From Methanococcus aeolicus Nankai-3 (GTDB lineage: Archaea > AGJL01 > Methanococci > Methanococcales > Methanococcaceae), in NCBI RefSeq assembly GCF_000017185.1, contig NC_009635.1, positions 808,563 to 872,562 of the forward strand: a DNA stretch of 64,000 bases, written 5' to 3'. The stretch's first letter is position 1; every line of letters begins with the position of its first letter. Shown here in pieces: positions 51,390-54,231 of the stretch. The notes below the pieces were generated by a model. That model had not been told where the DNA came from. It saw nothing but the letters and a program-made list of their open reading frames with translations, and made no database searches. A program made the translations under genes and the position numbers.

Positions 51390-51464
51390 AGGGCGGTGGC
51401 TTAGACTGGTTATAGTGCTCGGCTGATAACCGAGTGGTCCGGGGTTCGAATCCCCGCCGCCCTA
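51390..51464 (+). tRNA. tRNA-Ile (anticodon GAT)
   Basis: Acceptor AGGGCGG/CCGCCCT with A73; anticodon loop CTGATAA gives GAT. T-arm CGGGG-TTCGAAT-CCCCG. 75 bases, no intron, no CCA. The last 17 bases (from 51448) are the start of a 147-bp tandem repeat that extends downstream. Confidence 0.96.
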
Positions 51465-51800
51465 CTATTTTTTTAAGTAGATATATTTGTATATGCATAT
51501 ATATTTATTTTATTATATTATTATTTTTAGGTTCCGAACATCACAAAGTGATGTTTGGATTTTGGATAGCACCCTTTTTTAAAGGGTGCGTTCTGAATCC
51601 CCGCCGCCCTACTATTTTTTTAAGTAGATATATTTGTATATGCATATATATTTATTTTATTATATTATTATTTTTAGGTTCCGAACATCACAAAGTGATG
51701 TTTGGATTTTGGATAGCACCCTTTTTTAAAGGGTGCGTTCTGAATCCCCGCCGCCCTACTATTTTTTTAAGTAGATATATTTGTATATTTATATTTATTT
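51448..51800 (+). repeat. 147-bp tandem repeat beginning in the 3' end of tRNA-Ile
   Basis: Two full identical units (51448-51594 and 51595-51741) and a partial third (51742 to about 51800, with a small internal deletion). Each unit begins GAATCCCCGCCGCCCTA, the 3' end of the tRNA, and contains two hairpins: ACATCAC-aaa-GTGATGT and GCACCC-n9-GGGTGC. Since 147 is divisible by three, the array produces a spurious long open frame. Confidence 0.95.
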
Positions 51801-51882: not shown

Positions 51883-51890
51883 TTTAAATA
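51883..51890 (+). promoter_or_regulatory. TATA box for the structured RNA
   Basis: TTTAAATA, about 21 bases before the first paired base of the RNA candidate at 51904, a suitable distance for archaeal initiation. Confidence 0.45.
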
Positions 51891-51903: not shown

Positions 51904-52027
51904 GGTTTCTGCGAGGTATGTCGTCGATGACATGCCTCAGCGAATGATGACAGTTACCCCCGCGGACTGAAACAATATTTATTTTTGTTTCAGGATGACG
52001 ACATCAGCACTATCTGACGCAGCTACC
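51904..52027 (+). ncRNA. Structured non-coding RNA, box C/D-like with additional stems
   Basis: A GC-rich island in AT-rich DNA. A closing stem pairs GGT (51904) and CTGCG (51909-51913) with CGCAG (52018-52022) and ACC (52025-52027). Inside is a 9-bp hairpin AGGTATGTC/GACATGCCT (51914-51937) and a 9-bp hairpin CTGAAACAA/TTGTTTCAG (51967-51993). Box C/D signatures are C ATGATGA (51944-51950), D' CTGA (51967), C' TGACGA (51996-52001) and D CTGA (52014-52017); the C'-D spacer is exactly 12 bases. It could be a C/D guide RNA with extra stems, or a leader of the downstream cbiH gene. ATGTCGTC (51918) can also pair with GACGACAT (51997), an alternative fold. Confidence 0.65.
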
Positions 52028-52081
52028 AAAACAAAACGATGAATATTATTTTTTTAATTTTATAATTTTATGTGTGATATT

Positions 52082-52837
52082 ATGCTATATATTGTTGGAA
52101 TAGGTCCGGGAAATAAAGAATATTTTACGGAACAGGCTGAATCTGTTTTAAATTCCGTTGATTCAATTGTATGCTATAAAGGATATGAAAAATTTATAAA
52201 AAGATTTAATAAACCAATTTACACATCAGGAATGAAAAAAGAAATAGATAGAGTGGATTATGCACTAAAAGAAGCAAAAAATAAAAATATAGCATTGGTA
52301 TCAAGTGGAGATGCCACAATATATGGAATGGCTTCACTATCCTATGAATTAAATAATAAAAATAACTATAATGTTGATATAGAGGTAATAAGTGGCTTAA
52401 CTTCTGCAAGTTTATGCTCTGCAATATTGGGAGCTCCATTAAATCATGACTTCGCCGTTATTAGTTTAAGTGATTTATTAACTCCATTAGACATCATATT
52501 AAAAAGAGTTAATAGTTTATTAATGGGAGATTTTGTTATTGCCATATATAATCCACTTAGTAAATCCAGAAAAGAGCCATTTTTAAAGTGCTTTGAAATA
52601 ATACAAAATCATTCCAAACAAAATAATTTAAATTTGGTTGTAGGAATTGTAAAAAATGCAGGAAGAGATAACGAAGAATATAAAATGACCACAATAAACG
52701 ATTTAATGGATAATTTAGAGGAATACATGAAATATATTGATATGAATACAACCATAATAGTTGGGAGCTCCAACACAAAAATAATAAACAATAAAATGAT
52801 TACTCCAAGAGGGTATTTAAATAAATATTTAAAATAA
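52082..52837 (+). CDS. cbiH: Precorrin-3B/cobalt-factor III C17-methyltransferase
   Basis: 251 residues of the SAM-dependent tetrapyrrole methylase family. Conserved: MLYIVGIGPGNKEYFT at the start, ALVSSGDATIYGMAS near residue 72 and SGLTSASLCSAILGAPLNHDFAVISLSD near 101-128 (in several separate motifs), and AIYNPLSKSRKEPF near 156. It methylates C17 with ring contraction in anaerobic cobalamin synthesis, needed for corrinoid methyltransferases of methanogenesis. The ATG at 52082 is preceded by GTGATATT. The upstream structured RNA has no B12-box of known cobalamin riboswitches. Confidence 0.92.
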   Translation: MLYIVGIGPGNKEYFTEQAESVLNSVDSIVCYKGYEKFIKRFNKPIYTSGMKKEIDRVDYALKEAKNKNIALVSSGDATIYGMASLSYELNNKNNYNVDIEVISGLTSASLCSAILGAPLNHDFAVISLSDLLTPLDIILKRVNSLLMGDFVIAIYNPLSKSRKEPFLKCFEIIQNHSKQNNLNLVVGIVKNAGRDNEEYKMTTINDLMDNLEEYMKYIDMNTTIIVGSSNTKIINNKMITPRGYLNKYLK

Positions 52838-53286: not shown

Positions 53287-54231
53287 TTATTTTTTATCAA
53301 TTTTATAGTTTAAAATATCTTTTCCAAAATCAAATTTTATTTTTGTACTAATAGCATGTTTTGGACAAACCGAGGAACATGTGCTACACAATATACATTC
53401 TGTTGATAATATCCGTTTATTTTCATTTTTATAGTCTAATAATTTTATATCCATTGGGCAATTTTTTTCACATAATCCGCAATCTACACATTTATCTTTA
53501 TCTATTGACATTTTAATTAAAGAAAATCTTCCTAATATGTTCTGTATCGGCGGAATAGGACATAAATATTTACAAAATGCCCTATTGTCATTAAATGCAA
53601 AAGCCAAAATAATTCCCGATAAATAATATAACAATAGCCCCACAACAAACCACAATATTTCTCGTTCTGGATAATTGTATATTGTATATCCTCTGTTCCA
53701 GAAATAAAGCACAATACCAAAAGATAGAAATAATACAATATATTTAACAATTCCTAAATTTTTTATTCTTCCTCTTGATTTTTTGTATGGCAATAATTCA
53801 AATATCATAACTATCCAACAAGCCCAACCGCAAAATCCCCGTCCAAATATTATTGGACCAAATATTTTTGCAATTAAATAATGAATTGTAGAGCCTGCAA
53901 AAATCCCTCCGAATAGATAAAAGAAAAATCCTTCCATTTGCATATTTTCTGTTCTTATAAATCCAACATAAACCAGTAAATAAATACCTATTAAAAATAA
54001 TATTATTCTTCTTATTGTAGGGATTAATTTTCTGGGAGCTCCGTTTATAAGGAATAGTCCTAATGCAATACTACTGCCAATATATACAAAATTAAATATT
54101 AAAAATATGTTTTTTGTTTTAAAATAAGTAAATAATGCATAACCCATAAATACCGCAAATAGGGTTAAAGAACGACCCATATCATTTAATGATAAATTCC
54201 ATTTATTAGATTTATTATTATCATCATCCAT
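53287..54231 (-). CDS. NapH/CcoG-like membrane polyferredoxin
   Basis: 314 residues. About six membrane helices, with the family motifs GRGFCGWACWIV near residue 130 and CKYLCPIPP near 218, then two 4Fe-4S clusters: CVDCGLCEKNCP near 246 and CILCSTCSSVCP near 277. Such proteins pass electrons across or along the membrane. It stands alone, with no dedicated oxidoreductase partner nearby, so its role is unknown. It is divergent from thrB. Confidence 0.85.
   Translation of the reverse strand: MDDDNNKSNKWNLSLNDMGRSLTLFAVFMGYALFTYFKTKNIFLIFNFVYIGSSIALGLFLINGAPRKLIPTIRRIILFLIGIYLLVYVGFIRTENMQMEGFFFYLFGGIFAGSTIHYLIAKIFGPIIFGRGFCGWACWIVMIFELLPYKKSRGRIKNLGIVKYIVLFLSFGIVLYFWNRGYTIYNYPEREILWFVVGLLLYYLSGIILAFAFNDNRAFCKYLCPIPPIQNILGRFSLIKMSIDKDKCVDCGLCEKNCPMDIKLLDYKNENKRILSTECILCSTCSSVCPKHAISTKIKFDFGKDILNYKIDKK

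Follow-up and report, generated by a model that had tools for sequence, protein, structure and literature searches.

Based on the analysis reported here, we propose that the structured RNA at positions 51904-52027 of the window (the whole 64,000-nucleotide stretch of Methanococcus aeolicus Nankai-3 DNA that was analysed) is almost certainly the product of a free-standing gene for a dual-guide box C/D sRNA, with 23S rRNA as the predicted substrate of methylation. An earlier annotation made from the letters of this DNA alone (hereafter the sequence-only reading) had offered an elaborate guide RNA, a new RNA class, or a leader controlling cobalamin synthesis, and it is the elaborate guide RNA that the boxes, the guides, their targets and the phylogeny all fit. 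The window RNA is an old, widely common guide with longer hairpins; for the most part it is ordinary, and it is no vitamin B12 switch. Its core is of a known kind, and its extra stems are a lineage variant.

The RNA occupies a GC-rich structured island located between a tRNA-Ile gene, with its tandem repeats, and cbiH. The island folds at -41.7 kcal/mol (z = -3.9), and none of 200 shuffles folds as well. The closing stem and the two internal hairpins were found where the sequence-only reading had put them, and the C box, the D box, the 12-nt guide between C' and D and the suitable TATA box that it had listed are all present. The features, all on the plus strand, are the following.

51883-51890, +: TATA-like element TTTAAATA, a putative promoter element of the sRNA as judged from its position
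51904-51913, +: 5′ strand of the terminal stem (GGU ... CUGCG), paired with 52018-52027 in the minimum-energy and constrained folds
51914-51937, +: 5′ hairpin of 9 bp, AGGUAUGUC-GUCGAU-GACAUGCCU, predicted by folding between the terminal stem and the C box, making a three-way junction
51940-51942, +: GCG, which could pair with CGC 52018-52020 as the stem adjacent to the C/D kink-turn
51944-51950, +: box C, AUGAUGA, invariant in 22 aligned homologs
51952-51962, +: D′ guide AGUUACCCCCG, complementary to CGGGGGUAACU of 23S helix 69
51963-51966, +: box D′, CGGA, a variant of CUGA, its position aligned across 30 homologs
51967-51993, +: extended stem-loop of the D′/C′ kink-turn (CUGAAACAA ... UUGUUUCAG), in a register common to 30 homologs
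51995-52001, +: box C′, AUGACGA (AUGANGA in nearly all homologs and a true AUGAUGA in several)
52002-52013, +: D guide CAUCAGCACUAU, complementary to 23S CCAGUGCUGGUA
52014-52017, +: box D, CUGA, invariant in 22 aligned homologs
52018-52027, +: 3′ strand of the terminal stem (CGCAG CU ACC), in the minimum-energy and constrained folds
52070-52837, +: cbiH/cobJ (precorrin-3B C17-methyltransferase; TIGR01466, 297.9 bits), the downstream gene outside the sRNA

The terminal stem forms a duplex of -11.8 kcal/mol, and the GCG:CGC pairing is an alternative to CUGCG:CGCAG within it and the counterpart of a UG:CA pairing in relatives. We infer that the guide gene is transcribed, and the position of the TATA-like element suggests that the 5′ end of the sRNA probably lies nearer 51909-51914 than 51904. 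On the upstream side, the tRNA-Ile (GAU) gene is followed by a tandem array at 51390-51800 (period 147, 2.4 copies, 98% match), whose unit includes the final nucleotides of the tRNA gene (GAATCCCCGCCGCCCTACTA), and the array reads as a repeated duplication of the tRNA-Ile 3′ end and the region beyond it. On the other side, a gene at 53290-54231 on the minus strand, convergent with cbiH, encodes a NapH/MauN-like ferredoxin-type membrane protein, with a score of 67.8 bits that falls short of the cut-off for the family.

The sequence-only reading had suggested a search of Rfam and of the Methanococcales genomes, which bore out the conservation of the core and of the D′/C′ pairing and gave no Rfam family match. 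A core model based on sequence only, built from a 22-sequence alignment and searched against 36 Methanococcales genomes, gave one strong match in 35 of them (E 1.8e-12 to 2.7e-19), the sole genome without a match being 54% complete; in a phylum-wide search the matches came from Methanococcales only. The blastn match of the relatives begins at the C box, and the 5′ hairpin is therefore not common at the sequence level. No family reached threshold for the window RNA in the Rfam scans, and the plausible match of lowest E, the Pyrococcus C/D sRNA sR28 (RF01136), scored 16.7 bits against a gathering score of 39 and so leaves the RNA outside that family; the box layout is alike, but the guides do not match. 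Beyond the order, the exact pattern of C box plus first guide was found in Methanoculleus, Methanoregula, Methanocorpusculum, Methanolobus, Methanohalophilus, Haloquadratum and Halonotius, that is, in Methanomicrobiales, Methanosarcinales and Halobacteria, nearly always within a compact C/D RNA. The second guide differs across these euryarchaeal orders (loci L090-L208), being of a GCAGGG type in Methanomicrobiales and of other types in Halobacteria and Methanosarcinales, and therefore the two guide halves evolve as modules. Seven C/D sRNAs were detected by RNA-seq in Methanococcus maripaludis, a member of the same order, according to PMC4644070, and homologs of the window RNA occur in all the Methanococcus-type genomes searched.

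As in archaeal box C/D guide sRNAs, a box C of the RUGAUGA form and a CUGA box D lie near the RNA ends, and internal D′ and C′ boxes are present, with D′ degenerate. The host genome encodes members of the fibrillarin (PF01269, 316.6 bits), Nop (PF01798, 215 bits) and L7Ae (PF01248, 97.9 bits) families. The D′ box had been read as buried in a 9-bp hairpin, at the CUGA of 51967-51970, which is a mis-assignment by 4 nt: the true D′ box is the CGGA that precedes the hairpin, since the alignment places D′ four bases earlier, at 51963, and a D′ at 51967 would move the target by 4 nt. In 29 relatives the box D′ stands right after the invariant guide GUUACCCCC(A/G), as CUGA in 26 and as CCGA or CUAA in 3, and beyond it come, in the arrangement of a kink-turn, a stem or short spacer, a loop of 3 nt (mostly GAU) and a GANGA core. 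The rejected CUGA makes up the first four bases of the predicted D′/C′ kink-turn stem, which begins CUGAAACA. Across the 30 homologs, whose stem sequences differ, native arms form 5.6 of 6 pairs, and arms exchanged between species 3.2. Within this one orthologous sRNA (loci L209-L238) the D′/C′ spacer extends from 3 nt (G001, G004) to 40 nt (G012) with a constant box register, which is a wide range for an orthologous C/D sRNA, and in the long spacers the stem sequence varies with the pairing maintained.

The first guide gives a precise prediction. All 11 bases of the D′ guide pair with 23S helix 69, and 12 of 12 when the next base is included; within the rRNA operon of the window genome, the guide fits 23S GCGGGGGUAACU without mismatch, which only 1 of 200 shuffled guides equalled, and the target site does not differ among the genomes viewed. 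With box D′ at 51963, the N+5 rule sets C51958 opposite the fourth G of GGGGG in GCGGGGGUAACU, as expected of a guide to 23S G1950 (E. coli 1909), and the predicted target of the D′ guide is the G equivalent to E. coli 1909, which is Gm1950 in Haloarcula marismortui. The yeast snR63, a eukaryotic snoRNA, guides 25S Am2256, which we take, if the numbering is right, to be the equivalent helix 69 position across domains. PMC2584109, published in 2008, places Gm at H. marismortui 23S 1950 (E. coli 1909) in helix 69, proposes a candidate C/D sRNA to guide it, for which 25 archaeal genomes have homologs, and names Pyrococcus sR41 as a possible equivalent of this guide. The haloarchaeal guide and the window RNA share the target nucleotide predicted by the N+5 rule, a likeness of target. 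The C-box/D′-guide pattern of the window RNA is likewise found in Halobacteria and other orders; the differences are that the second guide changes between orders, and that the window RNA has a lengthened D′/C′ stem, a 5′ hairpin and a CGGA box D′. A new RNA class is unsupported, given that the literature already describes a guide for 23S G1950/1909 to which the core corresponds.

The second guide, at 52002-52013, can pair with 23S CCAGUGCUGGU, which lies some 50 nt upstream of the helix 69 site. The sequence-only reading had been right to see a guide here and wrong in taking its exact complement AUAGUGCUGAUG as the target, which is not one of the best-scoring sites in rRNA; the site conserved between species is CCAGUGCUGGUA, with one G-U. 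In the window species the guide forms 9 bp with this site, which puts it in the weakest class, and in the window genome alone CCAGUGCUGGUA is not the best-scoring rRNA site, as others score equally and 134 of 200 shuffled guides do as well. The support for this target is comparative: in all 21 genomes scored, the guide forms 8-11 Watson-Crick pairs and at most one G-U with 23S CCAGUGCYGGUA, in duplexes of 9-11 bp. The guide carries G where 23S has GCCGG (Methanocaldococcus-type genomes) and mostly A where it has GCUGG (Methanococcaceae); G004 is the exception to this covariation, its pairing being kept by a G-U. Antisense elements directly upstream of both D and D′ are kept across species in these 21 genomes. 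The predicted target of the D guide is the U in CCAGUGC, within 23S CCAGUGCUGG. This site probably belongs to helix 68, presumably near E. coli 1841. Helices 68, 69 and 71 of 23S rRNA are methylation hotspots, and the target sites of double guides are often within 100 nt of each other, as stated in PMC4644070.

The variant D′ box could instead mark an orphan or degraded guide, wherein D′ would no longer support methylation and the D side alone would work, as CGGA is the sole such replacement of CUGA among the 30 homologs. However, the D′ guide is perfectly kept, the CCGA and CUAA variants occur in relatives, and with AUGACGA as box C′ the G there would pair with a C in the kink-turn, and we consider a degraded guide improbable. 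Far more remote is the idea that the RNA acts in cis on cbiH, as a leader or riboswitch controlling cobalamin synthesis through a competing 8-bp helix. The RNA does stand about 50 nt ahead of the cbiH start on the same strand in the window and seven relatives, and the complementarity between 51918-51925 and 51997-52004 that had been noticed as a possible switch does exist. It is not a conserved switch, though: when forced, the helix is about 5.4 kcal/mol worse, an 8-bp inverted pair arises by chance in 5% of shuffles of the window RNA, and relatives with the same architecture hold no counterpart (longest 3-5 bp). The synteny also speaks against a leader; asked whether the RNA is always next to cbiH, the comparison gives 8 of 30 homologs, always with cbiH downstream and on the same strand, and the other 22 lack cbiH within loci reaching up to ~1.5 kb on each side yet keep both guides. 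Since just these eight adjoin it, a cobalamin leader is unsupported, and the adjacency looks like a gene order common to part of the family. No cobalamin riboswitch family matched in Rfam, either at the gathering threshold or at E up to 5.

For the dual-guide sRNA itself, there is the further matter of whether its 5′ hairpin with the three-way junction and its long D′/C′ stem define an elaborated C/D subclass of Methanococcus and Methanothermococcus, perhaps gained repeatedly, with an extra role, for example as a platform for proteins, in protecting the ends, or in the control of circularisation or guide loading, a proposal that we regard as unlikely. Folding with boxes and guides held unpaired predicts the terminal stem, the 5′ hairpin and the C/D core for the window RNA and for four relatives of the Methanococcus type (G013, G015, G018, G019), whose hairpin sequences differ from that of the window, and the D′/C′ stem stays paired despite changes in sequence and length, as such a role could favour. 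The three-way junction that the sequence-only reading had recognised is predicted for these five; for most homologs, among them the congeneric G003, neither hairpin nor junction is. Moreover, while none of 500 shuffles folds as well as the window hairpin, those of the four relatives are equalled by 44-183 of 500 (9-37%), and no conserved hairpin sequence was seen, as a specific protein site would need. No near-copy of the window hairpin (at most 3 mismatches) was found elsewhere in its own genome or in 40 relatives. The 3′ strand of the outer stem, GCUACC, is weak evidence alone, because it is kept also in species without the hairpin. G003 carries the identical TTTAAATA and an identical AACATACTA stretch ahead of its C box with no hairpin, and the window hairpin therefore reads as an insertion of ~37 bases in the window lineage, as suggested by these shared flanks. 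The elaborated form was found neither in Rfam nor in the literature searched.

For the dual-guide sRNA, we propose that box C/D and box D′/C′ would each form a kink-turn bound by L7Ae and then by Nop5 and fibrillarin. The D′ guide, placed on 23S helix 69, could direct 2′-O-methylation of the G that corresponds to E. coli 1909, and the D guide, about 50 nt upstream and probably on helix 68, could direct methylation of a U. The hairpin inserted 5′ of box C would convert the terminal stem into a three-way junction, and together with the longer D′/C′ stem it is probably a stabilising or end-protecting elaboration.

In conclusion, this work takes a supposed new RNA class and a supposed cobalamin switch off the list of candidates, and offers in their place a clear picture of a single ancient guide, in which the helix 69 half is kept across euryarchaea while variation falls on the second guide and on the outer stems. 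The D′-C′ spacer of Methanococcales, extending from a few bases to ~40, provides a natural series for the extra structure tolerated by the C/D RNP.
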